A stretch of 24,413 nucleotides of DNA from a virus (IMGVR_UViG_3300034121_000458:1-24413); one strand, 5' to 3'. Positions 2,442 through 24,346 are shown, counted from the first letter of the stretch. Notes: generated by a model from the letters alone, not told the origin. A program made the numbers and translations.

Positions 2442-2959
2442 GCTTTTCGGGCGTTTGAAATCGCTCTCCTCACAAGCACCCTACCGGCAACGTCAAGGAA
2501 CGGCAGTTTTCGCTTCGTCGCTTCCTCGCGCAGCCAGCCCACGATCTCGTCTAGGTGGGCCTCGCACCAGCCGGGTTCGCGGGCTTCCTCAATATCCATG
2601 CGTTTCGCGCGGGCGTTACAGGAACAGTTGGGCGTGGCGACGATGCCGATACGCTTCAGGAGTTTCTTGAGTTCCGCGCCGGGGCCGTGGGTTGGTGCTG
2701 GCGGCTTTGCCTGTGTCTGCGCCATTGCCATTGCCCTTGCCCTTGCCCTTGCCTGCGGCTTTGCCTGTGGCTGCGGCATTGCCCTTGCCTGCGGCTTCAC
2801 AAATCCCGGCTTTGGCACTCTCGGGTAGGCCGGGTGGTCAACGTCTACGGTGATCGTGTCTCCGTTTACGCTGACGATGCAGTCCCGAACTTCGTCCAAC
2901 GCGTAGCCGCGTTGGTAGCAGCGACTCGTAAAATCATTTATGCGGCCGGTAATAGTCAT
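2426..2959 (-). CDS. Unknown protein with low-complexity linker and conserved Cys-motif C-terminus
   Basis: This 177-residue protein has three parts. An N-terminal part of about 50 residues includes a short beta-type stretch (IVSVNGDTITVDVDHP). A low-complexity linker rich in Pro, Gln, Ala, Lys, Arg and Met follows, encoded by a degenerate 6-bp repeat (about 2701-2796). The C-terminal domain of about 80 residues carries CSC, a downstream RMD, WC, and REEA / AISNARK helices. I have a general memory of this C-terminal module in phage proteins near glycosyltransferases, but know of no function. The Cys-X-Cys and later Cys could bind metal. The ATG at 2959 overlaps the upstream stop as ATGA, so I prefer it to the in-frame start at 2977. 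It lies between the Ser-rich protein and the glycosyltransferases. Confidence 0.7.
   Translation of the reverse strand: MTITGRINDFTSRCYQRGYALDEVRDCIVSVNGDTITVDVDHPAYPRVPKPGFVKPQARAMPQPQAKPQARARARAMAMAQTQAKPPAPTHGPGAELKKLLKRIGIVATPNCSCNARAKRMDIEEAREPGWCEAHLDEIVGWLREEATKRKLPFLDVAGRVLVRRAISNARKAWLSR
2701..2796 (-). repeat. Degenerate 6-bp repeat encoding a basic Ala/Gln/Pro linker
   Basis: The plus strand shows repeated TTGCCC/TTGCCT hexamers broken by GCGGCT blocks. In the coding direction they encode alternating Ala-Arg, Ala-Met, Pro-Gln and Ala-Lys pairs. The tract stays in frame and forms the middle linker of the gene at 2426-2959. Such a tract is likely to vary in length between relatives. 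Confidence 0.7.
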
Positions 2960-5585: not shown

Positions 5586-8500
5586 CAGCCAAACCCTCCG
5601 AGCCGTGCCGCACCGACGATCGCCACCGGCTGATTGAAGTAATTCGACGCAGCCCCGGCGAGGCCAAGGGCGATCTGGTTCAGCAGTTTCGTTTGAATCC
5701 GCGCCTCGATCAGTTCGGGGTCTTGGGCACTCGCGGCGAGGTCAAGCACAAGGGCGGCACCCTCGGCGGTGCGAACGTCGGTCGTCTTTACCGTCGCGGA
5801 GCCGAGTGTGTTGAGTTGCCGGACCCGCTCTTGCTGCCGCGCGAACTCCGCTTCCTCGGCCTTGCGGCGTTCCTCCGCGATGCGGGCCTGCTCTTGGGCC
5901 ACGGCCTGCTGCTGGGCTTCTTGGGCCTTTGCGGCTTCTTCCTGCTGCTTCTCAAACGCCTTCTGATATTCCTCGCGTTGCTTCGCGGCACCACTGGCAA
6001 TGTCCTGCTCTTTGGCCTGCACTTGGTCAAGTTGCTGTAGCCGCGTCAGCGCCGCCCGTTGGGCCTCGTCGTCGCCCGCTGCCCTCGCAGCCGCCGCTGC
6101 TTCTTGGGCGCGAGCAATCTCGGCTTCAATCGCCACAAGGTTTTCCCCAGCCTTGATCCGCTCTTGATCGCCACCCACCTGTTGCATCGCAATAAGGTTG
6201 TTTACCAACTCTTGCTGCTGGAGTTGTTTCTTGTCGGCATCGTCTCGGGCCTTTTGGGCGTCAGCAATGATTTTCTTTTCGCCTTCGATCCGCTTGTCAA
6301 ACAACGCTTGCTGCCTCGCCACCTCGGCGTCAAAAGCCGGTTTGGTCAAGATGCCTGCCTCTGCCTGCGACTGCGCGGCCTTGATGCCGTCTTGCAGTTG
6401 TGCGGCAGCGTCGAACCCGGCCTGCCCAAACTCTGCGGACTTTTCAATCGCGGTGTCGATAGCCTTGTTGGCACCTTCAAACGCTTGCTCGAACCCTTGC
6501 CCGAATCCCTGCTCCAACGCCTGCTGCTGTTCTTCAAGGTTTGCCCGCAGCGTGTCGAGTTGTTCAAGGCGAGCCTGTGCATCCGTGCCGCCTTGTTCGG
6601 CGATCCTTGCCCGCTCACGCTCGACGGCGGCAAGGTCGTCGGTCACCTTGCTGGCAGCGTCGCTCGTCTTGAGCAACCCGTCGATGCGGGCCGTGTCTTG
6701 GTCGGCTTGCTTCGCAGCCGCCTCGTTCGCAGCAGTGCGTTCCGTAGTCTCCTGCTGGATCAACCGATTGACTGTTTCCTGCGCTGCCTTGATCCGTGCA
6801 ATCTCTTGCGCGGTCATGTTCAGCGGGTCAATGACACTCGCCGTCGCTGCCTCAAAGCCACGCATCGCCTCGGTGACGGCACTGCCTTGATCGACCACGC
6901 CGCCGAAGAAATTGTCGAACTGCTCCCGCGTCTTTTCAATGTTCGTTTCGATCTGAAACTGCGGGCTGCGTTCCCGTTCAATCCGCTCGCGGAGAGTCTG
7001 CACAAACTGCGAGCCAGCGCCGTTGCCCGCCTCCGCAGCCGCGTTGGACGCACCGCCAAAGGCAGCGGCCACGGCTTCGGTAGCGTTCTTTTTCGCGGCC
7101 TCTAGTTCCGCCTTGTTCCTTTCCAGCGCTTCGTTGCCAGCGTTCGCCAAGTCTTTTCCGGCTTGCTGCAAATCAGAGTCCACCCACGACCCCAGCCCTT
7201 CAAGCACCTTGCCCAAACCGATCAGCAAGTTGTTTCCGACAACTTCAAAGATATTGAAAACGTACCGCAGCCCCTCGCTGACGCCGACGAGGATGTTTCC
7301 GACGAAACGAAAAACGTCGCCCGCGTCTGACAGGATGGACGTGAACCCGTCGAAGTCCGCGAACACTTTGTCGAACACGCCAGCAAACACTTCCGCACCG
7401 TTGAGCAGCACGTCGGCGATTGTGTTGGCGATTCCTTGCCCGCCTTCGCCGCCGTTGAAGTCTTCGATGAACTTCAAGAACTCGTCCGCAACAGCGGCGA
7501 CCGCCGGTGCCAGTTGCCCAATCACGCGACCGACAATTCCTTGCACCGTCGCGGACACAAGATCGAAACGGTCATTCATTTCGGCAATGTTGGCAATGAG
7601 CGACTCGGGCACAATCGCACCAAGTCGCTCGGCCCGTGCTGTCAGTTCGTCAATGCTTGTCGCACCCTCTCGGAACAGCGGGGCAAGCGCGGCCCCCTGC
7701 TTCCCAAACAGCGACACAGCAGCCGCAGCACGATCTGCTGCCGTCGGCAGTTGTGAGATGGCATTGCTAATCGCACCGAACTGCTCCTCCGGTGCGAGGC
7801 TTCGCAGTTCCGCAACAGACAGGTTGATGCCACGCAGCGATTTGTCGAGTGCATCGCCGGGCGTAGCCTTTCCAATGTTTACGGCCAACTTCTGAATCGC
7901 TGACCCAAACTGCTCGGTGTCCACACCGGCCAACTTCGCCGCGAGCGAATACCCTTGAAGGGCTTCGACGCCAACGCCTGTCCGTGCGGAAAAGTCGTTG
8001 AGCGTATCAAGCGATGTGTTCACGCTTGTCACAAGGCTTGTGACTTGATTCGTCGCGCTGGTGAACGCGTTGCCAATAAGTTGAAAGCCGCTCACAAGCA
8101 CTCGGCCAACTTCAATCGTCGCAAGGATGCCAACGTTGCGATTCAGCCGGTCAATGTTCTTGTCGGCCCCGGCCGCGGACTTGCCAACTTCGTCAAGGTC
8201 TTTGCGTGCCCGTGCGGCTGCCTTGTTGAACTGTTCCTGCGAAAGCCTGCCGCCATCAAGATGCTTCCTCAACTCCTGCATCTGCTGGTCGTAGCGTTCT
8301 TGCGGCCCAAGGTTCGCCTGAATGATCCGCGATGCAGCGGCTAGTGCGTCGGCACGTTCCCGCTCTGCCTTCGCCGCTGCGGCGTTCGCGCCGCTGGCCT
8401 CGGCTGTAGCGCGGCTGAACGTCTCCTCCGAAATAGCACCTTGGTCGAGCAAGGTTGTCAGCCTTGCCATCTCAGTGGCACGCTGCTCCTCCGCAGTTGC

Positions 8501-9424
8501 GTATCGCTCGGTGATCCGCAACCCTTCATCAACCACACGCTGCCGTGCCGCCTCGGCTGCGGCTGCTGCGGCGTTTGCCCCGGTAACGTCAGCCACCGCA
8601 CGCGAGTGCGTTTCCTCGCTGATGGTCGCCTTGGCAAGCCGGTCGTCGAGGTCAGCCAAAATCGTCGCCCGCTTCTCGGCGTCGGTCTGGTACTTGGCGG
8701 TGATAACGTCCGACTGTGCTTGTGCCTGCCTGTCTTCTGCGGCTCTTTTTTCTTGGGCAGCGGCGGCTTCCTCGACGGCCCGCGTGAACTCGATGTTCGC
8801 CTCGCTCGACGCTGCAAAGGCCCGGTTGTACGTCTCTTGGGAAATGGCCCCCTCGGCGACGAGCCGGTTGATCTTCTCCAGTTCAAGAGCGCGTTTTTCC
8901 TCGGCCGTCGCGTACTGCTGCGTGACCCGTTCGCCCTCGGCAAGGACTGCCGCCCGTCCCCGCTCGGCTTCCAGTGCCGCAGCGTTCGCCCCGCTCGCCT
9001 CTGCCGTTGCACGGTTGTACGTGTCTTGGTCAATCGCGTTGAGTTTGAGCAGCCGCGAAAGATTCTCCAACTCAATGGCACGCTTTTGCTCGGCGGTGCG
9101 ATTCGCCTCCGTGACCCGTATGCCTTCGCCGAACGCGGTCGCAACGTCCTTCGCCTCTTTCGTCAGCCGGGCAAACGACTCCGCGTATGCGTTGGCGTCT
9201 TTGGTGTTTCGGAACTGCTCGGCTAGGGCGGCGAACCGATCCGCAAAACCTTGCTGGGCATTCGCCGCCGCCGCACTGGCAGCGGTGAACGGGGCAAAAA
9301 CAGACGTAGCCTTTTCCGCCTGCTTGCCGATGCTGGCAAGTGCCTTGTCAACAGGCGTGAGGCTCTTAGCGAGGCTTGACGCATCGCCCGTCACCTTCAA
9401 CGCTAGTCCAAGAATGTTCGCCAT
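5585..9424 (-). CDS. Tape measure protein
   Basis: At 1279 residues this is by far the longest gene here. It sits immediately after the tail chaperone pair, as expected of the tape measure that sets tail length and is ejected with the DNA. The N-terminal third is Ala/Glu/Arg-rich coiled coil with a 63-residue repeat. The middle (about residues 420-800) resembles the phage minor-tail/tape-measure core, with Gly/Ala-rich and hydrophobic helices (for example LVSGFQLIGNAF and NLLIGLGKVLEGLGSW). The C-terminal third returns to long charged coiled coil rich in Gln, Glu and Ala. At the usual 0.15 nm per residue it would specify a tail of roughly 190 nm. The ATG at 9424 overlaps the previous stop by 1 nt; GTG at 9427 is an alternative. 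Confidence 0.95.
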   Translation of the reverse strand: MANILGLALKVTGDASSLAKSLTPVDKALASIGKQAEKATSVFAPFTAASAAAANAQQGFADRFAALAEQFRNTKDANAYAESFARLTKEAKDVATAFGEGIRVTEANRTAEQKRAIELENLSRLLKLNAIDQDTYNRATAEASGANAAALEAERGRAAVLAEGERVTQQYATAEEKRALELEKINRLVAEGAISQETYNRAFAASSEANIEFTRAVEEAAAAQEKRAAEDRQAQAQSDVITAKYQTDAEKRATILADLDDRLAKATISEETHSRAVADVTGANAAAAAAEAARQRVVDEGLRITERYATAEEQRATEMARLTTLLDQGAISEETFSRATAEASGANAAAAKAERERADALAAASRIIQANLGPQERYDQQMQELRKHLDGGRLSQEQFNKAAARARKDLDEVGKSAAGADKNIDRLNRNVGILATIEVGRVLVSGFQLIGNAFTSATNQVTSLVTSVNTSLDTLNDFSARTGVGVEALQGYSLAAKLAGVDTEQFGSAIQKLAVNIGKATPGDALDKSLRGINLSVAELRSLAPEEQFGAISNAISQLPTAADRAAAAVSLFGKQGAALAPLFREGATSIDELTARAERLGAIVPESLIANIAEMNDRFDLVSATVQGIVGRVIGQLAPAVAAVADEFLKFIEDFNGGEGGQGIANTIADVLLNGAEVFAGVFDKVFADFDGFTSILSDAGDVFRFVGNILVGVSEGLRYVFNIFEVVGNNLLIGLGKVLEGLGSWVDSDLQQAGKDLANAGNEALERNKAELEAAKKNATEAVAAAFGGASNAAAEAGNGAGSQFVQTLRERIERERSPQFQIETNIEKTREQFDNFFGGVVDQGSAVTEAMRGFEAATASVIDPLNMTAQEIARIKAAQETVNRLIQQETTERTAANEAAAKQADQDTARIDGLLKTSDAASKVTDDLAAVERERARIAEQGGTDAQARLEQLDTLRANLEEQQQALEQGFGQGFEQAFEGANKAIDTAIEKSAEFGQAGFDAAAQLQDGIKAAQSQAEAGILTKPAFDAEVARQQALFDKRIEGEKKIIADAQKARDDADKKQLQQQELVNNLIAMQQVGGDQERIKAGENLVAIEAEIARAQEAAAAARAAGDDEAQRAALTRLQQLDQVQAKEQDIASGAAKQREEYQKAFEKQQEEAAKAQEAQQQAVAQEQARIAEERRKAEEAEFARQQERVRQLNTLGSATVKTTDVRTAEGAALVLDLAASAQDPELIEARIQTKLLNQIALGLAGAASNYFNQPVAIVGAARLGGFG
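8228..9097 (-). repeat. About 63-residue repeats in the tape measure protein
   Basis: Four clear units start with a T-A-E-x-x-R-A type motif at residues about 111, 174, 248 and 311, with a fainter fifth near 374. Spacing is 63, 74, 63 and 63 residues. Each unit carries a leucine-rich helix, then a Gly/Asn-Ala-Ile-Ser/Asp turn, then x-E-T-Y/F/H-x-R-A and an Ala-rich helix. The DNA is diverged, so this is an old protein-level repeat, not a fresh tandem array. The Ala-Ile-Ser-x-Glu part recalls short helical-hairpin modules such as SHOCT; that comparison is only a suggestion. Confidence 0.75.
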
Positions 9425-9729
9425 CACTCAAGCCCCAACTGTTTTTTCAAATCTAAAAGAACGTCGCGGGCCTGTGCTTGGTGCTGCGGCGGTTTTTCAA
9501 GCGGGATAAAGTCTTCGGCCTTCGGACACTTGCCCCGTGGCGAGTGTGGTGCCAGCAGGGCGCTGACAATCAATCCCGTCTCTGCCCATGAATCTCCAAG
9601 TGCTTCGTAGTACCGCGTGTATGCCATCCACTCGGTGAACTCCTGCGAGTCCATCCGAGCCATCAATTCCTTCACCGTCATCTTCAGGTGACCCGCAAGG
9701 CGGAAGGCAAACCTCCGCGTGTGGGACAC
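9424..9729 (-). CDS. Tail assembly chaperone, T-like ORF reached by frameshift
   Basis: This frame encodes up to 101 residues. The pattern FRLAGHLKMTVKEL, then SQEFTEWMAYTRYYEALGD, matches the T-type tail assembly chaperone domain found between the chaperone G gene and the tape measure. It lies in the -1 frame relative to the ORF at 9732-10076, which ends in a GGGAAAA slippery site. It is therefore probably translated mostly as the C-terminal part of a G-T fusion. An independent GTG start at 9729 is possible, just 2 nt after the upstream stop. A later in-frame ATG at 9681 would remove part of the conserved helix. The product binds the tape measure during tail assembly and is not expected in the virion. 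Confidence 0.82.
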   Translation of the reverse strand: MSHTRRFAFRLAGHLKMTVKELMARMDSQEFTEWMAYTRYYEALGDSWAETGLIVSALLAPHSPRGKCPKAEDFIPLEKPPQHQAQARDVLLDLKKQLGLE

Positions 9730-9731
9730 GT

Positions 9732-10076
9732 TCAGCCTTTTCCCAGTTCTTCGACGTCTGCCTCCGACATATTGTTGTGCTTCATCGCACGGTCGAAGAG
9801 CCGCGACATAACCGCCGCCGACTTCTGGCCCAACTTTTCAATCTGCTCCCGCGTAAACAGAAGTTTCCCCGCGTCGTCGCACAGCACCCGCTGCAAATAC
9901 TCCGTGCGGAAGTTTTCGATTCCGGTGTCACGCTTACCGATCCACATGCGTTCGTAAGCGTCCCGCTCGGCCACGCTCATCACGCGAACGTAGACCTCGC
10001 CGTTCCATTCCTTCACGTTGATCTTGAGGAGCGTTGCGTCGTCGGCTGCAAGAATCTGGTCTGCTGAAAGCGACAT
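9732..10076 (-). CDS. Tail assembly chaperone, G-like
   Basis: This 114-residue protein sits between the tail tube genes and the tape measure. It contains the segment EWNGEVYVRVMSVAERDAYERMW, typical of small phage tail assembly chaperones, and an acidic helical C-terminus (MSEADVEELGKG). The ATG at 10076 is chosen because the N-terminus MSLSADQILAADDATLL fits the family. The track of codons upstream to 10148 crosses the previous gene. The last codons, CTG GGA AAA GGC TGA, contain a canonical -1 slippery heptamer, giving a short form (this ORF) and a fused long form as with lambda G and G-T. Confidence 0.85.
   Translation of the reverse strand: MSLSADQILAADDATLLKINVKEWNGEVYVRVMSVAERDAYERMWIGKRDTGIENFRTEYLQRVLCDDAGKLLFTREQIEKLGQKSAAVMSRLFDRAMKHNNMSEADVEELGKG
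9738..9744 (-). other. Programmed -1 ribosomal frameshift site (GGGAAAA)
   Basis: On the minus strand the heptamer G GGA AAA is in the correct register for X XXY YYZ slippage, with zero-frame codons GGA and AAA. It lies two codons before the stop of the G-like ORF. After slippage the reading continues Arg-Leu-Asn-Val-Ser-His-Thr into the T-like ORF with no intervening stop. Both ORFs are in the right order and -1 relation, which is the known arrangement for phage tail chaperone pairs. Confidence 0.88.
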
Positions 10077-10086
10077 TTTATTTCTC

Positions 10087-10407
10087 TTATTCCGGGGTGA
10101 TCTTGAACGTCGCTGCGTACCTTGCAACGTCGTTGACTTTGCCCGCAATCTGCAACGACTGACAGATCGCCTTCGTCGTGAGCGTCAAGCCGCCGCCGGA
10201 AATATCCAGCGTGGCTTTCCTCCCATACGTGGCAATCGAAATCTGCGCAGAGGACAGGCACTTCACATCTATAGTGCCCATGTCAAATGCCCACGCACTT
10301 GCGCGAGCAAGCGGCAGACTGCCGCCGACGTTGACGTTGATCTCCGTCAACTCGCCAAGTGCAATGCTATTCCACGTAACGCTGACGCCTGTGCATACAT
10401 TCGCCAT
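10087..10407 (-). CDS. Small tail protein, tail-tube-like
   Basis: This 106-residue, beta-rich protein opens MANVCTGVSVTWNSIALGEL and continues TEINVNVGG. It ends in a strand (YAATFKITPE). Small beta-sandwich proteins of this length directly before the chaperone genes are usually tail tube or tail terminator components, and the pattern of short strands with Thr/Val/Gly fits a tube subunit. The GGAGG ribosome-binding site at 10414-10418 lies 6 nt before the ATG, the strongest signal in this part of the operon and consistent with high expression. Which of this gene and its neighbour at 10429-10818 is the main tube protein is uncertain. Confidence 0.6.
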   Translation of the reverse strand: MANVCTGVSVTWNSIALGELTEINVNVGGSLPLARASAWAFDMGTIDVKCLSSAQISIATYGRKATLDISGGGLTLTTKAICQSLQIAGKVNDVARYAATFKITPE

Positions 10408-10413
10408 GACGGG

Positions 10414-10418
10414 CCTCC
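10414..10418 (-). promoter_or_regulatory. Strong ribosome-binding site (GGAGG)
   Basis: A perfect GGAGG on the minus strand, 6 nt before the ATG at 10407. It supports independent, strong translation of the small tail-tube-like protein in an operon where most starts are coupled by overlap. Confidence 0.7.
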
Positions 10419-10428
10419 GTCACGGCAA

Positions 10429-10818
10429 CTAAGCGCGGGCAATACGAACCGTGGCCTGACCGCGAATCGCGTCGTTCGTTGCCAGCGTCAGCGTGGACGA
10501 GTTCACCGTGTAAGCAACACCGGCCACCAGACTGACCGCATTGCTCACGATTGAGCACGTGCCCGTCGAAGCGTCCGCAATGATGCTGCTGCCGAGGTAG
10601 TCAAACTGCACCGTGCGGCCCGTGTCACTCACGCTGCCCTGCAGCGGGCGATCAACAGTCTTGACCTGCGCGCCGGTCGTCAGGCCAAGGTGGCTTACGT
10701 CAATCTTTTCCGCATCGGCGTTCGGGTCGGTGAACGAAATGACGATATTCGTCACGGTGTAGAGCGTCGCGCCAAGCCGGAGCGTGGTGCCTGTACCGTC
10801 GTGCGGGGTGGCTGACAT
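10429..10818 (-). CDS. Major tail (tube) protein candidate
   Basis: This 129-residue protein begins MSATPHDGTGTTLRLGATLY. It continues through TNIVISFTDPNADAEKIDVSHLG, a motif pattern I associate with major tail proteins that polymerise into the tube (a strand, an acidic loop and then Ile-Asp-Val-Ser). The C-terminal half is a Ser/Thr/Val-rich beta region. It lies after the tail completion gene and before a second small tail-tube-like gene, as expected. The ATG at 10818 has an AGGAG 8-10 nt upstream. It is shorter than the classical lambda tube protein, and a second gene may supply the missing domain or decoration. Confidence 0.65.
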   Translation of the reverse strand: MSATPHDGTGTTLRLGATLYTVTNIVISFTDPNADAEKIDVSHLGLTTGAQVKTVDRPLQGSVSDTGRTVQFDYLGSSIIADASTGTCSIVSNAVSLVAGVAYTVNSSTLTLATNDAIRGQATVRIARA

Positions 10819-10821
10819 TCT

Positions 10822-11241
10822 TCAAATCTCCTGCCAAAGTATTGAGTACGTTTGCGACACCGAATACAGAGGCGGTGTTTCGCCGCCCGCCAACTGAGCG
10901 AATCCGTCAGACTCGTTATCGAGGCTCACGTTCTTCACTACCACCAAGTCTGACTCACTGGTGCCATACCCATCCAGACACGCCCGGCACTTGTCTGCCA
11001 ACTCTCTTACTGCCTCGTACGTCTCGGCATAAAGGTCGAGCGTCAGCACAACGGTGGGCATCCCAATCGGGCCGGAAAGCGACTGCTGCCGCTGCACGCC
11101 CGACCGCCGGTAACAGGCAAACGGGGGCGGGGCAGACGCCGGTGCCAGCACCGGGAAAACCCGCGTGGCAACAATCGCCGCCACGGCAGCGTTGGCGACA
11201 AGAGCGTTGCGAATAACCGCCTCGGGAGATTTCAGTGCCAT
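10822..11241 (-). CDS. Tail completion / head-tail joining protein (DUF3168-like)
   Basis: This 139-residue protein has a helical start (KSPEAVIRNALVANAAVAAIV). It then has RVFPVLAPASAPPPFACY, the characteristic phrase of the HK97 tail-completion (DUF3168) family, and a strand-helix segment TVVLTLDLYAETYEAVREL. These proteins cap the tail tube and link it to the head. The frame extends upstream to 11412, but that extension overlaps the previous gene and has no conserved character, so I start at ATG 11241, which follows a G-rich stretch. The gene precedes the tail tube genes as usual. Confidence 0.85.
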   Translation of the reverse strand: MALKSPEAVIRNALVANAAVAAIVATRVFPVLAPASAPPPFACYRRSGVQRQQSLSGPIGMPTVVLTLDLYAETYEAVRELADKCRACLDGYGTSESDLVVVKNVSLDNESDGFAQLAGGETPPLYSVSQTYSILWQEI

Positions 11242-11279
11242 GCCCCCAGCGTGGCAGAAACCGCCGCAGGCTTGCAGCC

Positions 11280-12083
11280 TTACCCGCTGGCCGTGAGGGC
11301 ACCAGTGATCGAGCCGGTTGTCTGAAACGTCAACGCCCGAATGGCCGCTTCGAGGGAAATCTTCAACTCGGCCTGCAGCCGGTTCGCCACCTCGGCCTTG
11401 GTTTGGTTCCACGCGGTCTGAATGGGGGGGCGACCGGCTACGCCGCCCGGCTGCACCGCCGAAATCTGAAACGGCTGCGACGACTTTTTGAAGTACGCTT
11501 TGTTGTAACCCGGTTCCGTCCGCACTTCGTCGCTGCCCGTCTCAACAAACTTGAAAGGCCCGAGCCGCTTGAAACTCGACGCGATGTATCCGTTCTGCCC
11601 GCTGACCCAATGCACGACTCCTTTGCCCCGCACGGTTTCTTGGACGCCCATGCGGACGCGGGTGAACGGTGCGGTCGGTGACTTCCGCTGATACGGCGTG
11701 TTCGACAGCCGCGCAAACTTTCGCTCCTTCGTGCCGAACTCCAGCCACCATTGATGGAAGGCTCGATCCGGCCCGGCCCGCACGGTGCCGCCTGCGGCAC
11801 TCGACGCGTTCTCTTTTCCGGCCCGCGTGTACCCAATCAACGCGACCGCGCCGCCGGTGCGCGGGTAAGCCTTGGCCTTGTAGGTCGCCGCCCGCTTAAG
11901 GTTTCCCGTCGGCCCGATTGGCGTCACCTCCCGCAGCCGCAAGTACGCAGGCCAGATAGCCTTTTCCAAAGCGTCCTTCAGCAACTCCGCTGCCGCTGCT
12001 TTGTCGCCAAGGTTTTTGATGCCTTCGCGCAGCGCGGCTAGTTCGGGAAACTCGACGCTGATCTTGATGCCAGCAACAGCCAT
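11280..12083 (-). CDS. HK97 gp10-like head-tail / tail component
   Basis: This 267-residue protein matches the HK97 gp10 type. An N-terminal helix region is followed by REVTPIGPTGNLKRAATYKA, the family's signature for a basic segment after a short helix. The sequence continues with VALIGYTRAG and WWLEFGTKER, also typical. It is longer than the usual 120-150 residues because of an insertion and a C-terminal helical extension (QTAWNQTKAEVANRLQAEL). The ATG at 12083 overlaps the previous TAA by 1 nt. These proteins work at the head-tail interface. The extra length is the only odd feature. Confidence 0.85.
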   Translation of the reverse strand: MAVAGIKISVEFPELAALREGIKNLGDKAAAAELLKDALEKAIWPAYLRLREVTPIGPTGNLKRAATYKAKAYPRTGGAVALIGYTRAGKENASSAAGGTVRAGPDRAFHQWWLEFGTKERKFARLSNTPYQRKSPTAPFTRVRMGVQETVRGKGVVHWVSGQNGYIASSFKRLGPFKFVETGSDEVRTEPGYNKAYFKKSSQPFQISAVQPGGVAGRPPIQTAWNQTKAEVANRLQAELKISLEAAIRALTFQTTGSITGALTASG

Positions 12084-13442: not shown

Positions 13443-13639
13443 TTCTTCTGCCTCCGGGGGATGGCGTCTGCGGTTTCGGCGGCGGGTTCAACGCGGGTGT
13501 TTTCAACCAACTCCCGCTGATCGTCGCGGGCGGCGACCGCGTACTCCCAAGCGATCAGCGACTCGGCCTGCCGGTCTGGAAGGTCAATCACTTCGCCGCG
13601 TTTGTACGCCCCGTGCGGCTTCGTCAGTCTGATTCTCAT
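13439..13639 (-). CDS. Small unknown head-region protein (66 aa)
   Basis: This short protein begins MRIRLTKPHGAYKRGEVIDL, then PDRQAESLIAWEYAVAARDD, and ends in Pro/Ala/Glu/Lys. The first half resembles the small phage proteins with a strand, a Gly-Glu/Gln-Val-Ile-Asp-Leu turn and a helix that are often found beside head-tail connector genes. The frame extends to 13798, but ATGA overlap with the previous gene fixes the start at 13639. The function is unknown. Confidence 0.72.
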   Translation of the reverse strand: MRIRLTKPHGAYKRGEVIDLPDRQAESLIAWEYAVAARDDQRELVENTRVEPAAETADAIPRRQKK

Positions 13640-14370
13640 TCTGACACGCTCCACGCATCCTTCGGCTGCTTCTTTGTTTCCTGCCACTCGGTCGTGTATT
13701 GGTGAACCGGAGCGGCGAAGTTCTTCCCCGGCCACGTGATCGTGTATTCCCCGTGCCCGATGCAAACTCGCGGAGTCACGTACAGCCGGTTGCCGCACTT
13801 CTTGAACTGCCGCCAGAACGATATATCGGAGTCAGTTCTGCCGTCACCCCAACCGCCCGTCGGGTCTGGCTGTTCGTGGAACCAAGGTTTTGCCATCCGC
13901 TTGAGTGCCCTTGTAGAGATGATCGTGCAGCCGAAATGAGCCGTATCGACTTGCTGCACTGGCTCGTTGAACCACCCAAGCGGCAGGCTCGTCACGCCGC
14001 CTTCCGGCGGGTTGTCGAGCGTGTCAAGCAGCGTCAGCATCGGCCTGCCGTCTTCACGCTTTGTCTGCAGCGGGGCAAGGGCGTCGCACTGGAAAGACAT
14101 AGCAAGAGCGAACAGGTGTTCAACCGATTCCCTGCTCACGAAACTGTCCATATCTAGGGTGATTATATATTCCGTCGTGTCTTGGAAACTCTCAAGCATT
14201 CGCGTCAAAACCTGACTCCAGAACGCACCCTGCCCGAGCGTCGGGCGGATGTGCAGCGGCATCATCGCTTCAACAAATCCAAACGCGTTGATCAGCGGCC
14301 CGAACCGGGGGCCAGACAGGATCGCTTCCGCACGCACGTCAACCTTCGTGTCGCCAATCTGCACAATCAT
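13636..14370 (-). CDS. GT-A glycosyltransferase-like protein inside the head gene cluster
   Basis: This 244-residue protein has a GT-A-type centre. TEYIITLDMDSFVSRES gives a strand ending in the metal-binding D-x-D, and it is followed by a helix and the segment SFQCDALAPLQTKRED. Later come DTAHFGCTIISTRAL and, near the end, CIGHGEYTITWPG. A transferase using a nucleotide-sugar donor is the best reading. It lies between the capsid genes and the connector, downstream of a strong intrinsic terminator. It starts at ATG 14370 with GGAGG 4 nt away, in place of the open frame to 14430. The acceptor could be the capsid, another virion protein or DNA. Confidence 0.72.
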   Translation of the reverse strand: MIVQIGDTKVDVRAEAILSGPRFGPLINAFGFVEAMMPLHIRPTLGQGAFWSQVLTRMLESFQDTTEYIITLDMDSFVSRESVEHLFALAMSFQCDALAPLQTKREDGRPMLTLLDTLDNPPEGGVTSLPLGWFNEPVQQVDTAHFGCTIISTRALKRMAKPWFHEQPDPTGGWGDGRTDSDISFWRQFKKCGNRLYVTPRVCIGHGEYTITWPGKNFAAPVHQYTTEWQETKKQPKDAWSVSE

Positions 14371-14374
14371 GAAA

Positions 14375-14379
14375 CCTCC
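14375..14379 (-). promoter_or_regulatory. Ribosome-binding site (GGAGG) right after the terminator
   Basis: GGAGG on the minus strand is directly adjacent to the T-tract of the terminator and 4 nt before the ATG at 14370. It allows a fresh start of translation on the reduced read-through transcript. Confidence 0.75.
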
Positions 14380-14416
14380 AAAAAAAACGGCGGGGAGGCG
14401 ATTGCCTTCCCCGCCG
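14380..14416 (-). terminator. Intrinsic (rho-independent) terminator after the capsid genes
   Basis: On the minus strand, CGGCGGGGA pairs with TCCCCGCCG (9 bp, mostly G-C). The stem has a single bulged A, an inner GGC/GCC stem and a four-base loop AATC. The hairpin is followed directly by eight T. It starts 26 nt after the stop of the gene at 14443-14886 and ends just before the ribosome-binding site of the next gene. This is the only strong intrinsic terminator I see in the window. It would separate high-level capsid expression from lower-level connector and tail genes. Confidence 0.9.
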
Positions 14417-14442
14417 CTCAGTGTGGTCACTGTGTCAAGCGA

Positions 14443-17587: not shown

Positions 17588-19481
17588 CGGACTTCTTTCT
17601 GCGGCTCCGCTTTTTTGCTTCCGGTGCTGGCTTGTCGGTGATCGTCTGCGGCGAGTCATCGACCCAAACGTCCACGTTGATCCCAGCGGCCTCGGCCGCA
17701 TCGGCCTTGAGCATGTCGCCGCCGACGAGCAGCACCTGCGAGAACGCTGACGCGTAATCGCCAAGCGCCTCCGTGACCGTCTGGCGATCCTCCTCCGGTC
17801 GCCGCGAAATCATCACAACTGTGTTTCCCTCCGCAGCCGACTTGCGGGCAAACTCGCCCCACATCTGCGGATCAGCAGCGAACGTGCGGTCGAAGTCAAT
17901 GCTGACCGTCATCGCACGCGGCTCGGGCAGCGACCGGCCAAACGGTGCGGCGGGCGCGGGCGCGGGCGTTGGCAGCGGCGTGGCGTCGGTCGCCACGCCA
18001 GCCAGGATCGCCGTCACCTGCGCGGGCGATATGCTTGGGAACGACGCGGCGATAAGCGCCGCCGCACCGTCCTTGGTCAGCAGGCCAGCGGGCACCTGTG
18101 ACAGAATCGCAATCAGCCCCGTAATCTGTGCCCCGTTCAGCGACACGTCCGCAACTTGTGGTGCCTCAGGCTGCGCCGGTTCGGCTGGCACCGGCGTGGC
18201 CGGTGCTGGCTCCTCCGCTGCCGCTGCCGTGCCACCGGCGACCGCCTGTCCGTCGATCCCGCTGCCGGGTTGCTGCTGGGCCAGCACGTCGCCCTCGGAG
18301 GGCGGGGCACCAAGCGTGCCCATGTTGAGCGGCCGGTAGCGAACGTCGCCGCCCTCGACGGGGTTGCGGTTTTCAAGTTCCAAGATGTCGTTTGTCGAAA
18401 GCGCCCCCACGTCCCACATCGCCCGGTAGTAAGCCGACCGCGATGCCGAGTCGCCGCGAAGCAAACCGCGCACGTCGAACTCAACTTGGTAGCGGTCGTC
18501 GTCTTCAATCAAGTCACGCATAAACGCAGACTCGAAACGTCGCAGCCACGGCAGGATCGTGTGCTGCACGAAGTCCAAACCCGCGTGTTCAATCGAGCCG
18601 TAGCCGCCGTTCATCACACCAAGCAAGTGCATCGGCACGCGGAACAATCTGGCAATCTCAGCCAACTGGTAGGTTCGCGCCTCAAGAAATTGCGCATCGG
18701 TGTTGCTTGATTGCGGAATGTCATAAGGCCGCAGCCCGCCCGTGAGGACTGCGGTGTTGTGCGAGTTGCCGACGCCGCCGTGGCGTCGATCCCACTGCGA
18801 CCGCAACTGCTCGCGGGCCTCGGCGTTCAACTGCCCGTCGGTAGACAGCACGAAGCCGGGGCGGGCACCGGCGGCAAAAAACCTCGCCCCGTGCAACTCG
18901 CACGCGCGGGCCAACGCAATCGCGTCTTTGCACTCAGTCACCAGCGAGATGCCATGCACGCCGTCGTCGGACGGGCCGCGAACGTGCAGGATTTGCTCTT
19001 CGGAATAAACCGTTTCCGAGCCGCGTTCCTCGCGGTACTTGTATCGCAGCCGCCCGTTCTCGATCCGCTCCACAGTCATGCGGCTCGGGTGCAACGGCAC
19101 GATCTGGTCAACGGCACCGGACGGGCCTGACTTCAGTTCGCTAAAAGCATCGCCCCACAAGGCAACGTGAAAAACGGCCTGCTCCCGCCACTCGAACGAA
19201 GTCTGCCAAGCGTTCGGCTGCTGGTGCAGTTTTCGGTACAGCGGCAGTTCGCGGGCCTCGCGTTTGCCCCCGGTCTTCACCCGCTCAAGAACGTGGAGCG
19301 GCAGGCTGGCAACCGTCTCGCTCAAAATCCTCAAACACGCAAACACGGCAGTGACTTGCGTGGCGTTGGTCGCGTCGATGCGGACGCCAGCGGCGTTGCG
19401 GGAACTGCCGCCGCCGTCCTCGTCCCACATTCGTTCTTCGCCGGGGAGCCAGAGGATTCTGTTTTCGTTTTGGGCGATCAT
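17574..19481 (-). CDS. Portal protein fused to a C-terminal HAD-like domain
   Basis: At 635 residues this is much longer than an ordinary HK97 portal (about 400). Residues 1-390 are the portal. Motifs include TAVFACLRILSETVASLPLH near 44-63, ILHVRGPSDDGVHGISLV near 164-181, and QLAEIARLFRVPMHLLGV near 272-289. A Pro/Ala/Glu linker follows, then a small helical module (LNGAQITGLIAILSQV, residues about 448-495). After a second Pro/Ala linker, residues 524-615 form a HAD domain. D529-x-D531-x-T533 is motif I, the VVMISRR segment is motif II, K592 is motif III and D608-D609 is motif IV. The tail is basic. The portal forms the DNA channel; the HAD role is unknown. The start gives an ATGA overlap with the terminase gene. 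Confidence 0.93.
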   Translation of the reverse strand: MIAQNENRILWLPGEERMWDEDGGGSSRNAAGVRIDATNATQVTAVFACLRILSETVASLPLHVLERVKTGGKREARELPLYRKLHQQPNAWQTSFEWREQAVFHVALWGDAFSELKSGPSGAVDQIVPLHPSRMTVERIENGRLRYKYREERGSETVYSEEQILHVRGPSDDGVHGISLVTECKDAIALARACELHGARFFAAGARPGFVLSTDGQLNAEAREQLRSQWDRRHGGVGNSHNTAVLTGGLRPYDIPQSSNTDAQFLEARTYQLAEIARLFRVPMHLLGVMNGGYGSIEHAGLDFVQHTILPWLRRFESAFMRDLIEDDDRYQVEFDVRGLLRGDSASRSAYYRAMWDVGALSTNDILELENRNPVEGGDVRYRPLNMGTLGAPPSEGDVLAQQQPGSGIDGQAVAGGTAAAAEEPAPATPVPAEPAQPEAPQVADVSLNGAQITGLIAILSQVPAGLLTKDGAAALIAASFPSISPAQVTAILAGVATDATPLPTPAPAPAAPFGRSLPEPRAMTVSIDFDRTFAADPQMWGEFARKSAAEGNTVVMISRRPEEDRQTVTEALGDYASAFSQVLLVGGDMLKADAAEAAGINVDVWVDDSPQTITDKPAPEAKKRSRRKKSDGEV

Positions 19482-21085
19482 ATGAAAAAGATTTCGGGGG
19501 TGTCGTCTGGCTTGTGTTCGCTACCGATCCAACTGCCGATGCTCTGGCACAGTGCCACGATGCCGTCGATACGCTCCGTTGATTTCGCCTTGCTTGGGAA
19601 AATGTTTCCGTACCTGTCTTCGTGAACGGCCGCGTTGCCAGCACACCACGAAAGCACCGGATGCCCGGCGTGGCGAATCTTGGAATTGGCTATCAAGTTC
19701 TCCAGAGCCTTGGCAGGCGCGCTCATGGCGCGACCGCCCTGCGGGTATCCTTTCACGTCTACCCCGTCCCCTTGCAGCATATTGGCGATCATTTGCCCGT
19801 TGAATTTCAAATCGACCACCAACTGCCGCACGCTGTACTGCTCACAAATCGCGGTTATGTCGCGGTGCAGCACGGTGTAGTCGGTCACGTTCCCGTCGGT
19901 CGTGCGGAGGTGCCCGTCGCGTATCCAATCCAGATACGGCACCTTGTCCCGCTGGCTCCGCTCGACCGCGTTGGATTCTGGAATCCAGAAGAACGGCAGC
20001 ACGTCAATGCTCCCGTCCTCGGGATCGGGGCACACCAGCACCAGTGCGGTCAAGTCGTAGGTCGTCGCAAGATCAAGGCCCGCGTACACAGGCCGGTCGC
20101 CGAACTCGCGGAGCGGCACCGACCCCTGCTGCCACGTTTCCGGCGACAGCCACCGCACGTCGGAAGAAGTCCAAGTGTTAAGCCGGTAGCGGAGGAAAGA
20201 ATTGAGTTTCGTCGGCGACTGCTCGGCCTCCTTCGCGTCATGGGCAAAGTCGTCGGGCTTGATCGTCACGCCCCACGAAGGGTTCGCCTGCGGCCATGTG
20301 TCGGGGTCTTTCCAATCGGCGTCGGCTTCCATTTCGTGGATGCAGGAGAAGAACGTCGGGTCGTGTTTCCAGTTCGCCGCAACCGCCTTCGCGTACTGGT
20401 ATTGCTCGTAGCAGATACCCTTGCGGTCGTAGCCCGCAGTCGTTATCGAAACGAGGAGCGGTTGTTCTCGGGCCGCACCGCCGTACCTTAATGCGTCCCA
20501 TAATTTTCTGTCTTTTTGAGCGTGCAGTTCGTCGAACAAAAGCCCGTGAATATTGAGTCCTTCGGCTCGAAAAGCGTCAGCAGACAGCACGCGATAGAAC
20601 GACGCTTCTTTGCGGTATGCAATCGTGCGGCGGGAATCAACAACCTCCAGCACGCGGGACAACTGCGGCGAGGCCCGCACCATGCTTGCCGCCTCGCGGT
20701 AAACCACCGATGCCTGCTCACGGTCAGCAGCCGCCCCGTACACTTCGCAGCCGTTTTCGCCGTCCATGACCAGCAAATAGAGGCCGATGCCCGCCAGCAG
20801 CGTGGACTTGCCCTGCTTCTTTGCCGTCGAGATGTACGCCACGCGGAACCGCCGCGTGTCGTCGGACAGCCGCTTCCAGCCGAACAACTCACCGATCATC
20901 ACCGCTTGCCACTCAAGCAGCGTGAACGGCTGGCCCGCGTGTTTTCCTTTGGAGTGCCGCAGCCACTCTTCAAAGAATCCGATAGCGTGCTTCGCCGCGT
21001 CGGGGTCGAAGTAGTAATCAAGCCCCGCTAGGGCGGCGTCGCTTCGCAGCGTAGGCGGCAACCGGGTCTGTATCTGCGTTTCCAT
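19478..21085 (-). CDS. terL: Terminase large subunit (HK97 type)
   Basis: This 535-residue protein is the ATP-driven packaging motor and nuclease. The ATPase part has Walker A AKKQGKS (88-94) and Walker B LLFDE (D185, E186) followed by LHAQ. SITTAGYD (213-220) fits the coupling motif. The nuclease part has AGLDLATTYDLTAL with D338, VVDLKFNG with D425, and ERIDGIVAL with D507, the expected acidic triad. The N-terminal FDPDAAKHAIGFFEEWLRHS and GKHAGQPFTLLEWQ are typical of the HK97-like group. The gene overlaps the small subunit by 68 nt. ATG 21085 is the only early ATG, so the overlap may be real. Confidence 0.97.
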   Translation of the reverse strand: METQIQTRLPPTLRSDAALAGLDYYFDPDAAKHAIGFFEEWLRHSKGKHAGQPFTLLEWQAVMIGELFGWKRLSDDTRRFRVAYISTAKKQGKSTLLAGIGLYLLVMDGENGCEVYGAAADREQASVVYREAASMVRASPQLSRVLEVVDSRRTIAYRKEASFYRVLSADAFRAEGLNIHGLLFDELHAQKDRKLWDALRYGGAAREQPLLVSITTAGYDRKGICYEQYQYAKAVAANWKHDPTFFSCIHEMEADADWKDPDTWPQANPSWGVTIKPDDFAHDAKEAEQSPTKLNSFLRYRLNTWTSSDVRWLSPETWQQGSVPLREFGDRPVYAGLDLATTYDLTALVLVCPDPEDGSIDVLPFFWIPESNAVERSQRDKVPYLDWIRDGHLRTTDGNVTDYTVLHRDITAICEQYSVRQLVVDLKFNGQMIANMLQGDGVDVKGYPQGGRAMSAPAKALENLIANSKIRHAGHPVLSWCAGNAAVHEDRYGNIFPSKAKSTERIDGIVALCQSIGSWIGSEHKPDDTPEIFFI

Positions 21086-21545
21086 TTGTCGTAGATACCT
21101 GTGACCGACTGCTTGGCGTCATGCCGAACTCTTGCTCAATCCGCAGCATCGCAGCGTGATGGCGGTGCATCTGCGTTGCCCACGGGGCAACCTGCGTGTA
21201 CTTGATTCGCAGCCGACCGTCGGTGCGGTTCGGGTCTGGCTCCCAGTGCGTAACTTCCTCGCCGCCGACCTTCACCTTCTCATAGCACGCAAGGTACAGC
21301 ACCGCCTCGATGCAGTACCGCGTCAGCGTCGGCACGTCGGCCTCGGTCAGCACCCGCATCCGCGCGAGTTTCGGCACCATCTCGTTCCAGACTTCTGCGG
21401 CCTTGCCGTCGAGCGTCTTGGGCGGCGGGAAGTCCTGCGGCACCAACTCCGGTGTCGGCTCGCTCGACGGCAGCGAATCCTTCGACGGGTTGCCGCGAAT
21501 GTATTTCAGAATCGACGGTTCGGGCGGGGGGCCGCGTTTGCCCAT
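21018..21545 (-). CDS. terS: Terminase small subunit, P27 family
   Basis: This 175-residue protein begins MGKRGPPPEPSILKYIRGNP, the P27-type signature. It continues with KAAEVWNEMVPKLARMRVLT, then EADVPTLTRYC, and near the end has RIEQEFGMTPSSRSQV, all diagnostic. It recognises the phage genome and hands it to the large subunit. An AGGAG at 21555-21559 lies 9 nt before the ATG, so translation restarts here after a 15-nt gap from the glycosyltransferase gene. The length is normal. Confidence 0.95.
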   Translation of the reverse strand: MGKRGPPPEPSILKYIRGNPSKDSLPSSEPTPELVPQDFPPPKTLDGKAAEVWNEMVPKLARMRVLTEADVPTLTRYCIEAVLYLACYEKVKVGGEEVTHWEPDPNRTDGRLRIKYTQVAPWATQMHRHHAAMLRIEQEFGMTPSSRSQVSTTNGNADTDPVAAYAAKRRRPSGA

Positions 21546-21560: not shown

Positions 21561-22271
21561 CTATCGAATCAAAATCTCATTGGGCCTGCGAGGGTTGTCT
21601 CTGACCATCCCAGGCCACTTGCTCTTCAAGTAGTCAATCATCTTTTGCTCAAGGGCGGCAGTGCGATAACTGCAAGCGCCGCCACGATTTGTCCTGTGCG
21701 CGAAAGTCGCAAGGATAGCGTTGAGCCGAACAACGACGCCGTACTGCTTTATGTGCTGCAGCGTGTAGTCGTAGTCTTCCTTGAGACTCATGGCTTCGTC
21801 AAACCTAAGCGGCGTGCGACGAACAGCAATCATGTCCCCAACGATGAATCCGTTTGTTTGAATTGGCTTGAGCGGATTGAAATAAAATGAGTTTGCTGTT
21901 GGGGCCATGCCTGCTAGTCGCGCGCCGGATTTCTTCATTTCTTTTAACATGAAGTCAACCGCCTCGTCGCACTTTAATTCGCGCTTGCTGTCCTTGCTTT
22001 CTGCGAAATGCAACTTTCCGAGGTCGTCGCTCAACTCAACGACATATTCACAATCTGCGAATCCTGCATCAAGAGCGGCGTTGCGGCTGCGACAAAGAGC
22101 ACCAGACTCTACAACGCACGCTGCGCCCGCAGCGGCGTACTCGCGGCCCTCTCCTCGCCCGACGAACCAAGTTGCTTCGCCGCATTTTTCTTGCATCGAC
22201 GAAACGGACGCGGAGCGTTTGTGCGAAATAACGGAAACGAAACAAGACTCCCCGCCGATTATGCGATTCAT
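21561..22271 (-). CDS. TET-associated-type glycosyltransferase (TAGT-like)
   Basis: This 236-residue protein resembles the GT-A-like glycosyltransferases that accompany phage TET/JBP genes. The start FVSVISHKRSASVSSMQEK is followed by a strand pattern with GREYAAAGA and CRSRNAAL. VVELSDDLGKL contains the S81-D82-D83 motif in the place of the metal-binding D-x-D. MSLKEDYDYTLQHIKQYG near 161-178 carries a probable catalytic acidic cluster, then TFAHRTNRGGACSYRT and KWPGMVRDNPRRPNEI. It would add a sugar to the hydroxymethylated base made by the oxygenase upstream. The start at 22271 is fixed by an ATGA overlap with that gene; the frame extends to 22310. The family name is from memory of motifs. 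Confidence 0.72.
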   Translation of the reverse strand: MNRIIGGESCFVSVISHKRSASVSSMQEKCGEATWFVGRGEGREYAAAGAACVVESGALCRSRNAALDAGFADCEYVVELSDDLGKLHFAESKDSKRELKCDEAVDFMLKEMKKSGARLAGMAPTANSFYFNPLKPIQTNGFIVGDMIAVRRTPLRFDEAMSLKEDYDYTLQHIKQYGVVVRLNAILATFAHRTNRGGACSYRTAALEQKMIDYLKSKWPGMVRDNPRRPNEILIR

Positions 22272-23152
22272 CCTGTCATCGACTCCCCTCGTTTGCGGTT
22301 CTTCGCCCACTCAACTTCCTCTCGGGCCGACTTGCAGTGAATCATCTTCTCGCGGTAGTAGAAGACGAGCGTGATGCGCTCGTAACCGGCCCGCATGTTC
22401 TTGAACCCGGTGTTGCTGTGCCACTCGTGAACGTCCGCGAGGCACAGGCACCCGTGCGCAAAGTTCACCGCAACGCGGTAGGCCGGGAACACCAAATAAG
22501 CCCCGTCGTACTTGTCGTTCCGCAGGCACGACATCACTCCGAATCCTGAGTGTAGGTCACCGGCGTCCTTGTGCGTGGCGGTCTGGAAGTTCTTGTTGAC
22601 GGTGACGGTTGTGAATGTGCTTTGAGGGATAACCCAATCCGACGCAGTGCGGCTGGCGTGCTCGCGTTGAACCTCCCACCGGTCAGGCATGAACTCGCGG
22701 AAGCCTTCGTCGGCCCTTGCGATATATGGGAGGAACCGTTTCCACGCCGCCGCTTCAGATATGAGGAATGCGGTTTGCCTGCAAAAAGGAAATCGGGGGT
22801 TCCTGTCAAAGTAGCCCGCGATGCCGCTCGCCACTGGTTTTGCGTGTGATGTGTTTGTTCGCCTGCCACTTTTTGTGAACGAAGGCGCATTCGCTTGGCC
22901 TTCCCTGACAGTCCCCGACGCCATGCCTCTGTTTGTAGTTGGCTGCGCGACCTTGCGGCACGTCGGCAAGACGGACCTGCACAACTCTTCCGAGAACCAG
23001 CCGGGGCGGTATTTCAGCAGCGGTGTCCCGTCGGGCTTGTATACGTCGCAAGGCTCGCTGCCGCCAACGAGCGTATCGTAGTGCGACTCGTCCAATTGCT
23101 GGCCGTAGAGCCGGTCTGCTTCAACTTGCACGTCACAACGAATTGACCGCAC
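22268..23152 (-). CDS. TET/JBP-type 2-oxoglutarate/Fe(II) dioxygenase
   Basis: This 294-residue protein carries the double-stranded beta-helix signature of TET/JBP base oxygenases. FTTVTVNKNFQTATHKDAGD contains the iron-binding H194-x-D196. It is followed by DGAYLVFPAYRVAVNFAHG, then DVHEWHSNT with the distal histidine (H245 likely). R259 in YERITLVFYY would bind 2-oxoglutarate. The upstream segment SGIAGYFDRNP plus CRQTAF is also typical. The family oxidises the methyl group of 5-methylcytosine or thymine in DNA. No ATG is available. I choose GTG 23152 because GGAGG at 23162-23166 lies 9 nt upstream; TTG 23209 and GTG 23131 are alternatives. It overlaps the ParB-like gene by 20 nt. Confidence 0.85.
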   Translation of the reverse strand: MRSIRCDVQVEADRLYGQQLDESHYDTLVGGSEPCDVYKPDGTPLLKYRPGWFSEELCRSVLPTCRKVAQPTTNRGMASGTVREGQANAPSFTKSGRRTNTSHAKPVASGIAGYFDRNPRFPFCRQTAFLISEAAAWKRFLPYIARADEGFREFMPDRWEVQREHASRTASDWVIPQSTFTTVTVNKNFQTATHKDAGDLHSGFGVMSCLRNDKYDGAYLVFPAYRVAVNFAHGCLCLADVHEWHSNTGFKNMRAGYERITLVFYYREKMIHCKSAREEVEWAKNRKRGESMTG

Positions 23153-23771
23153 TTCGCATTGCCTCCAAAACTGTGTCGGTAAGGTTGTCTGTTCCGTGTC
23201 GCTCGCCAAGCGTTGCGCACGCTTCGTGAAAGTCGGCGATGTTTGTCTCGCTCAGAAACAACTGAACCATTCGCACGCCCGCAAGTACGGCTTCGTCGGC
23301 GTCGTCGTCATCTTCGCCATGCGGCGGTTCTTCCGCGTCGTGCAACTCCCCGCCGTTGCTGAACAGCCCCGCCGCCTCTGCCGTGCGGCCCAGCAATTTT
23401 GCCAGCGATTCGTTGCCTGTGTCGATTGACTCAAACAAACTCTGCGCCGCAACGGAGTCAATGTCTGCCATTTGTTTCATTGGATCGAGCGTCAGCAGTA
23501 ACTTGTCCGCCTCGCTCTCGGTAACGTCCAGAACGAGCACAGGCAACTTGCCGCCTTTGGCTAGTTCAAGCCGTAGGTGGCCGTCGATTAGCATCAGCCG
23601 CCCGTCCGGCAGTTCCCTCGCAAGCGCTGCGGCAGCGCACCCGACTTCTTCAAGGATTCCCTCCATCGCCTTGCGCTGTCCTTCCGGATGCTCTCTCCAG
23701 TTCTTTGGATTTGGGAGAACGTCTTCACAAGAGACGAACCGCAACTCTTTCACCCTGTCTCGAATGTTCAT
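23133..23771 (-). CDS. ParB-like protein, copy 1
   Basis: This 212-residue protein has the N-terminal ParB/sulfiredoxin-type domain. NPKNWREHPEGQRKAM near 21-36 is followed by LPDGRLMLIDGHLRLEL with D63-G64-H65-L66-R67, the nucleotide-binding or catalytic loop. Then comes VLVLDVTESEADKLLLTLDP. An acidic linker (residues about 145-160) leads to a C-terminal module with RMVQLFLSETNIADFHEACA and GTDNLTDTVLEAM. Phage ParB-like proteins of this size often lie in base-modification clusters, where they may act as nucleases or DNA-binding factors rather than in partitioning. It is a paralogue of the next gene and is coupled to it by ATGA. Confidence 0.85.
   Translation of the reverse strand: MNIRDRVKELRFVSCEDVLPNPKNWREHPEGQRKAMEGILEEVGCAAAALARELPDGRLMLIDGHLRLELAKGGKLPVLVLDVTESEADKLLLTLDPMKQMADIDSVAAQSLFESIDTGNESLAKLLGRTAEAAGLFSNGGELHDAEEPPHGEDDDDADEAVLAGVRMVQLFLSETNIADFHEACATLGERHGTDNLTDTVLEAMRSAVNSL
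23162..23166 (-). promoter_or_regulatory. Ribosome-binding site (GGAGG) deciding the GTG start of the oxygenase
   Basis: GGAGG on the minus strand is 9 nt before GTG 23152. It lies inside the end of the upstream ParB-like gene and supports a non-ATG start for the TET/JBP-like protein. Confidence 0.7.
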
Positions 23772-24346
23772 TTCGCGGCCTCCCGCGTCACTGCTTCAAG
23801 GACGGTGTCCGTCACCCCATCGGTGCCATACTCTGCAGCAAGACGGCTCGAAAGTTCGTGAAACTCCAAGACGTTGTCTTGGTCGAAAAACAACTGAACC
23901 ACGCGTATTCCGGGTGTCGCGTCGGTGTCGGTCGATGGGTCTGGCTCGTATGGATCGTCTGGCTTCGCAAGTTCGCGCAGCCTGTCAACAACGTCGTCAA
24001 ACGATCGGCTGAGTTCGGCGAACGCTTCGGAATTTGTTTTTGCCATGCCTGCGACGGGGTCAAACGTCGCCAAAATCTTGTCGCCCTCTTCCTCGGTAAC
24101 GTCGAGGACGATTACCGGGATGAGCGAAGTGCTTGCCGTCTCCGCTCGCAGGTGCCCGTCGAGCAGCATGAGGCTCCCGTCTGGAAGTTCCCTTGCTACG
24201 CAGGCGTTTGCCATGCCGATTTCTGCAAATGCCTTTCGCAGTGCGTTGTGCTGCGACTCCGGGTGCGTTCTCCAGTTCTTCGGATTGGGCCGGAGGTCGC
24301 CCGCCGGGACTCTCCGCAACTCTTTAACGCGGTTTCGGATGTTCAT
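23768..24346 (-). CDS. ParB-like protein, copy 2
   Basis: This 192-residue paralogue of copy 1 has the same architecture. It starts MNIRNRVKELRRVPAGDLRP, then has NPKNWRTHPESQ, and LLDGHLRAET with D63 to R67 identical in position. VIVLDVTEEEGDKILATFDP follows, and the C-terminal module has VVQLFFDQDNVLEFHEL and GTDGVTDTVLEAV. The linker is shorter and less acidic than in copy 1. It is the first complete gene in transcription order. I see no clear ribosome-binding site upstream, so it may be coupled to a gene beyond the window edge. The 67 bases to the right edge show no supportable promoter. Confidence 0.84.
   Translation of the reverse strand: MNIRNRVKELRRVPAGDLRPNPKNWRTHPESQHNALRKAFAEIGMANACVARELPDGSLMLLDGHLRAETASTSLIPVIVLDVTEEEGDKILATFDPVAGMAKTNSEAFAELSRSFDDVVDRLRELAKPDDPYEPDPSTDTDATPGIRVVQLFFDQDNVLEFHELSSRLAAEYGTDGVTDTVLEAVTREAAK

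Follow-up and report, generated by a model that had tools for sequence, protein, structure and literature searches.

A ParB-TET-TAGT gene cassette in a virus genome as a candidate route to glycosylated 5-hydroxymethyluracil

A four-gene cassette ahead of the terminase

The window, meaning the whole stretch of DNA analysed, is a 24.4-kb virus record. We found four tightly coupled ORFs on its minus strand, encoding two ParB-like proteins, an oxygenase and a glycosyltransferase, followed by the genes for TerS and TerL. ParB-like protein 1 (192 aa, 23768..24346) and ParB-like protein 2 (212 aa, 23133..23771), the latter directly upstream of TET, are joined by an ATGA overlap. ParB-like protein 2 shares 20 nt with the TET/JBP-type 2-oxoglutarate/Fe(II) dioxygenase (294 aa, 22268..23152), which starts with GTG, and a second ATGA overlap links the oxygenase to the TAGT-family GT-A glycosyltransferase (236 aa, 21561..22271). 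These positions and overlaps agree with the earlier note. The terminase small subunit (21018..21545, Terminase_4 E 5.9e-18), which lies outside the modification step, and the large subunit (19478..21085, TerL_ATPase and TerL_nuclease in Pfam) form the flank on the same strand.

The product of 22268-23152 matched Tet_JBP (PF12851, E 1.3e-22, 80.3 bits against a cut-off of 34.9), and Pfam matched no other domain in its 294 residues. The residues H194-x-D196, H245 and R259, corresponding to the HxD...H iron triad and the 2OG-binding Arg, are invariant in an alignment of 52 TETs. Searching with the AlphaFold model (pLDDT 91.6), Foldseek ranked TET2 (1.7e-13), NgTET1 (3e-13) and CcTET at the top of the solved structures, and FTO and AlkB-type proteins came far behind these human, Naegleria and Coprinopsis TETs. 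The TET alignment profile reached TET2 at 2e-8 among the PDB sequences; plain phmmer with the window TET found no match there. The Pfam match and the fold search bear out the TET/JBP assignment of the earlier note and disfavour other 2OG families, a placement that the note had named as refuting its reading; in the structure comparison that it proposed, the model resembles human TET2 and Naegleria TET. The oxygenase is thus predicted to oxidise, probably, a 5-methyl pyrimidine in DNA. 2OG oxygenases are versatile, and the enzyme might act on RNA or protein with its neighbours being incidental; we regard this as very improbable, since the nearest solved structures are DNA-base oxygenases and the partners at such loci (ParB, ADDT, TAGT) belong to DNA-linked families. 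A genome scan for the host returned no more than distant TETs, from MAGs of Parcubacteria, Pirellulales and Terriglobia.

The product of 21561-22271 matched TAGT marginally (PF20691, E 2.7e-6, 27.9 bits, 0.4 bit above the cut-off of 27.5) and PHROG 842, glucosyltransferase, with E 3.9e-9. It carries S-D82-D83 and D166, and these three aspartates are invariant among the aligned TAGTs. Its model showed a GT-A-like nucleotide-sugar fold at moderate confidence (pLDDT 72.5). Plain phmmer of this protein against PDB sequences gave no match, and the TAGT profile gave no meaningful one. The ORF can be opened to 22310; the ATG coupled to TET is at 22271. The family match just over the cut-off, the conserved aspartates and the fold support the TAGT-like glycosyltransferase that had been proposed.

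Neither ParB-like protein matched any Pfam family. Both matched ParB-like PHROGs (E 1.8e-6 and 4.5e-7, the latter for ParB-like protein 1), and they are 49% identical to each other. ParB-like protein 1 has a ParB_N-like N-terminus and a C-terminal VRxVQLFx...TDTV motif; in the alignment of the pair with its homologues (A6), PF02195 ParB_N matched 5 of 15 members. The fuller C-terminal motif, VRMVQLFL...YGTDNxTDTV, is common to TET-associated ParB-like proteins of very divergent phages. Judging by their sequences, the window pair (23133-24346) and its homologues apparently form a dedicated subfamily. The PHROG matches and the recurrence upstream of TET, described below, are in line with the ParB-like partners named earlier.

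Substrate choice in a complete genome

The window is contained in full, at 100% identity, in the IMG/VR contig G002 (53,916 bp). A 127-bp direct repeat at the ends of this contig leads us to take it as the complete genome, with its opening point just upstream of the cassette. The earlier note had suggested that a C5-methyltransferase may lie beyond the right-hand end of the window. This was not borne out: PF00145 had no match in the complete genome, and a Pfam scan of 51 further proteins returned no methyltransferase family. The 51 proteins gave 21 families, including portal, capsid, Prim-Pol, UvrD, integrase, glycosyltransferases and the DNA polymerase III beta clamp. Profile searches of this genome for N6/N4 and D12 methylases and for the thymidylate-synthase-type hydroxymethylase (PF00303) were negative, and neither a 5hmU DNA kinase nor an amino acid:DNA transferase (ADDT) was among the families of the scanned proteins. 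Nor did a family of replicative DNA polymerases turn up in the scanned set, which would be consistent with replication driven by the host and modification afterwards.

TET needs a 5-methyl pyrimidine, and neither a methyltransferase nor a thymidylate-synthase-type hydroxymethylase was found in the genome. That leaves thymine as the one abundant 5-methyl pyrimidine that the phage itself supplies, with the counterpoint that 5mC could come from the host. The preference for 5-methylcytosine in the earlier note is not supported, given the absent C5-methyltransferase and the relatives that tie TET to the amino acid:DNA transferase.

Several other genes of this genome drew our attention. The window contains further glycosyltransferase-like genes at 155-2441 (two GT25 with an unassigned one between) and, among the head genes, at 13636-14430, and the other genome half has a glycosyltransferase cluster at 8458-11330 of G002 (L027). 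Together these comprise two GT25, one GT2-type and others, whose targets are perhaps virion or host glycans. The product of the ORF at 2956-4065 of the window combines an extended run of serines with repeats rich in cysteine (such as GPCDGExPCPEGCECVDGECV), and had no PHROG match.

Conserved ParB-TET loci with exchanged partners

Scanning IMG/VR turned up 24 close relatives; when an alignment served as query, 585 records encoding a relative were found, and we retained the best 80 of them. A ParB-like gene stands at position -1 of TET, near or overlapping it, in 69 of 94 loci, and is a neighbour of TET in 55 of the 61 non-redundant relatives. ADDT and/or a P-loop kinase lies near TET in 37/61 (ADDT in 34/61) and TAGT in 13/61; GT-B, radical SAM or FkbM genes are found in others. 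These ParB-TET loci often sit just ahead of terminase genes in divergent phages, the position from which the note suggested that modification may be timed with packaging. The recurrence of a ParB-like gene upstream of TET and of nearby tailoring genes in dozens of divergent phages argues that the cassette arrangement is not chance.

In the close relatives of the window, the partner genes lie between TET and TerS. The partner is TAGT in the window and three relatives (L005, L006, L013), a GT-B-like protein with no Pfam match in two (L008, L015) and an FkbM methyltransferase in one (L012). ADDT and a P-loop kinase, with or without a glutamine amidotransferase, a GNAT or another 2OG oxygenase, occupy five loci (L004, L009, L018, L020, L052), and a radical SAM-SPASM protein, an unassigned RSGSH-motif protein and TAGT occur together in two (L023, L025). 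Pfam confirmed ADDT in 18 of 20 tested members and Ploopntkinase3 in 11 of 19. Matches to GT-B and radical SAM in L004 and L052 were discarded, as those profiles had been built from over-extended ORFs.

The nearest TET, that of L052, is 79% identical to the window TET (branch support 100, quick tree method) and has ADDT (E 5e-15) and the kinase downstream of it. Since this sister of the window TET has ADDT and a kinase, the decoration has changed with the oxygenase kept. TETs across the TAGT and ADDT loci are 61-79% identical to the window TET, which suggests that the same base is probably acted on in both.

TAGT was nearly exclusive with ADDT/kinase (overlap 2/13, p 3e-4). This bears on the alternative that TET hydroxylates thymine and TAGT targets a protein or a host glycan, leaving only 5hmU in virion DNA. 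The marginal TAGT score and the several other glycosyltransferases of the genome, which make other glycosylation plausible, are consistent with it. We nevertheless consider it improbable, because TAGT overlaps TET by ATGA, belongs to a family named for its TET association, occupies the slot of DNA-base tailoring enzymes elsewhere and keeps apart from ADDT/kinase. The DNA-hypermodification role first suggested for the cassette is supported, as are its TET/JBP, TAGT and ParB-like assignments.

Two further gene contents were observed among the relatives. The radical SAM-SPASM and RSGSH-motif genes lie between TET and TAGT (L023 2783-5356, L025 10925-13541), possibly yielding a sugar-bearing base of greater complexity. 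Two loci (L009 2803-3936, L020 2867-4000) have an additional Asp/Arg-hydroxylase-like 2OG oxygenase between ADDT and the kinase, Pfam-tested in L009, which suggests further oxidation of the attached group.

For the ADDT of the TET locus L018, 96% of the sequence could be aligned to proteins from ViI-like phages of the Ackermannviridae, and ADDT is homologous to thymidine-hypermodification enzymes. ViI DNA contains 5-(2-aminoethoxy)methyl-dU (5-NeOmdU) at about 43% of T, made via 5hmdU and a 5hmdU DNA kinase (PMC6449724). In ViI-like phages, 5hmdU is described as incorporated into DNA. At the TET loci, this incorporation would be replaced by the action of TET on the DNA itself. The window genome itself differs from M6/ViI-type thymidine hypermodification by having no PF00303 match and no kinase or ADDT among the families of its scanned proteins, with kinase and ADDT near TET in its close relatives.

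Several named phages carry the same gene order. In Rhodococcus phage Tonitrus, ParB, a TET-like JBP, aGPT-PPlase2 and a 5-hmU kinase have been described and the same proposal is in print (PMC11955845). We found the order ParB-TET-ADDT-kinase-terminase in the cultured Gordonia phage CaiB and ParB-TET-kinase-terminase in the cultured Mycobacterium phage KayaCho, whose TETs score below the Pfam cut-off. Tonitrus, CaiB and Bclasvirinae such as KayaCho share with the window related TETs and the order ParB, TET, tailoring gene and terminase, but have ADDT and/or a P-loop kinase in the slot where the window has TAGT.

Some annotations of such genes in cultured actinobacteriophages (Microbacterium phage Matzah gp3, L048 1595-2179; KayaCho gp2 and gp3, L200; CaiB gp2, L198) are likely wrong, to judge from profile matches. 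Those annotated as a HicA-like toxin or terminase small subunit are Ploopntkinase3, and those at position 2 annotated as queuine tRNA-ribosyltransferase or oxidoreductase match Tet_JBP weakly.

For comparison, we retrieved loci using the TET from the Methylophilales phage Melnitz as query (17 non-redundant). A C5-methyltransferase lies near TET in 16/17 of these and, with the same profile, in 0/61 window-clade relatives (p 1e-15). Conversely, ParB is near TET in 55/61 window-clade loci against 0/17, and ADDT in 34/61 against 0/17 (p 1e-5). The Melnitz-type TETs form one well-separated tree group (17 rows, support 99, quick method), and the slot upstream of TET holds the C5-methyltransferase in Melnitz and ParB in the window.

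These data bear on a cytosine pathway, in which TET would oxidise 5mC to 5hmC for glycosylation by TAGT, as in characterised phage systems of C5-methyltransferase and TET. The 5mC would come from the host or from a methyltransferase that escaped recognition. Phage TETs with an adjacent C5-methyltransferase exist (Melnitz) and some have TAGT, which we found near 3 of the 17 cytosine-type TETs; the glycosylated cytosines of such systems have been summarised (PMC12730594). A few window-clade relatives also carry a C5-methyltransferase-like gene: PF00145 has a partial or short match elsewhere on the contig in three virus records (G024, G054, G071), the G024 match being a short ORF some 7 kb away from TET. 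We judge the cytosine pathway unlikely, at perhaps one chance in several, as no methyltransferase of any kind was found in the complete genome, ParB stands upstream of TET where Melnitz has its C5-methyltransferase, and the nearest relatives carry ADDT.

Three candidate markers were set aside. The Asp of HxDxxD, which contacts 5mC in NgTET1, is present in the window TET and in both TET clades, and was dropped as a marker of base specificity. Candidate specificity positions that differ between the clades (e.g. T191/M, G205/T, N247/V) amount to correlation only. The P-loop kinase was dropped as a thymine-specific marker, since 5 of the 17 C5-methyltransferase loci have it too. Its presence inside such loci (L050 7302-7832, L184 7252-7797) hints at 5hmC phosphorylation as a further cytosine pathway.

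A proposed pathway and its known counterparts

We infer the base, the sugar, the role of ParB and the protective function of the cassette as follows. After replication, the TET/JBP oxygenase would act on thymine within the phage DNA and hydroxylate its 5-methyl group, giving 5-hydroxymethyluracil (5hmU). TAGT would add a sugar from a nucleotide-sugar donor to the new hydroxyl, giving glycosyl-5hmU, a phage equivalent of base J. The ParB-like proteins may be DNA-binding factors that load the enzymes or direct them to their targets, and the modified DNA would resist host nucleases. We favour this ParB-addressed, protective pathway from thymine as the fairly likely reading.

The base J pathway of kinetoplastids yields beta-D-glucosyl-5hmU in DNA through the thymidine hydroxylase JBP1/JBP2 and the glucosyltransferase JGT. 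Iyer et al. (2013) reportedly placed JGT with TAGT and made predictions for TAGTs, for JGT and for the TET/JBP systems of phages, so that the families of these enzymes were already known. What is new here is a variant of the ParB-TET cassette that has TAGT and lacks a methyltransferase. Like the base J pathway, the window has a TET/JBP oxygenase and a TAGT-type glycosyltransferase, no DNA methyltransferase, and glycosyl-5hmU as the predicted product. It differs in that the 294 residues of its TET form one domain and include no J-binding or SWI2/SNF2 domain, and its ParB-like partners set it apart.

Phage cytosine systems combining a C5-methyltransferase, TET and a glycosyltransferase are said to have been described by Burke et al. 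(2021). Like Melnitz, they resemble the window in having a phage TET and sometimes TAGT, but have a C5-methyltransferase in the place of ParB and a TET of a separate clade. In the cultured Nonlabens phage P12024L, TET (35% identity) adjoins an annotated beta-glucosyl-HMC-alpha-glucosyltransferase, with no C5-methyltransferase. This phage has no ParB at the locus, an N6/N4 methylase adjoins, and its TET-TAGT pair lies beside a primase gene, not the terminase.

Phage TETs thus fall into two clades whose partner genes differ, a distinction that matters when they are used as reagents. With related TET loci in cultured P12024L, CaiB and KayaCho, the substrate question is open to nucleoside mass spectrometry. 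More tentatively, and at somewhat less than even odds, the product may be true base J or a close analogue, the first such pathway in a bacterial virus, with ParB-TET as a widespread core for swappable sugar, amino acid or radical-SAM decoration, in which the ParB-like proteins would address the enzymes to DNA. To our knowledge, base J has so far been a DNA base of kinetoplastids; if our reading is true, it has a parallel in phages.
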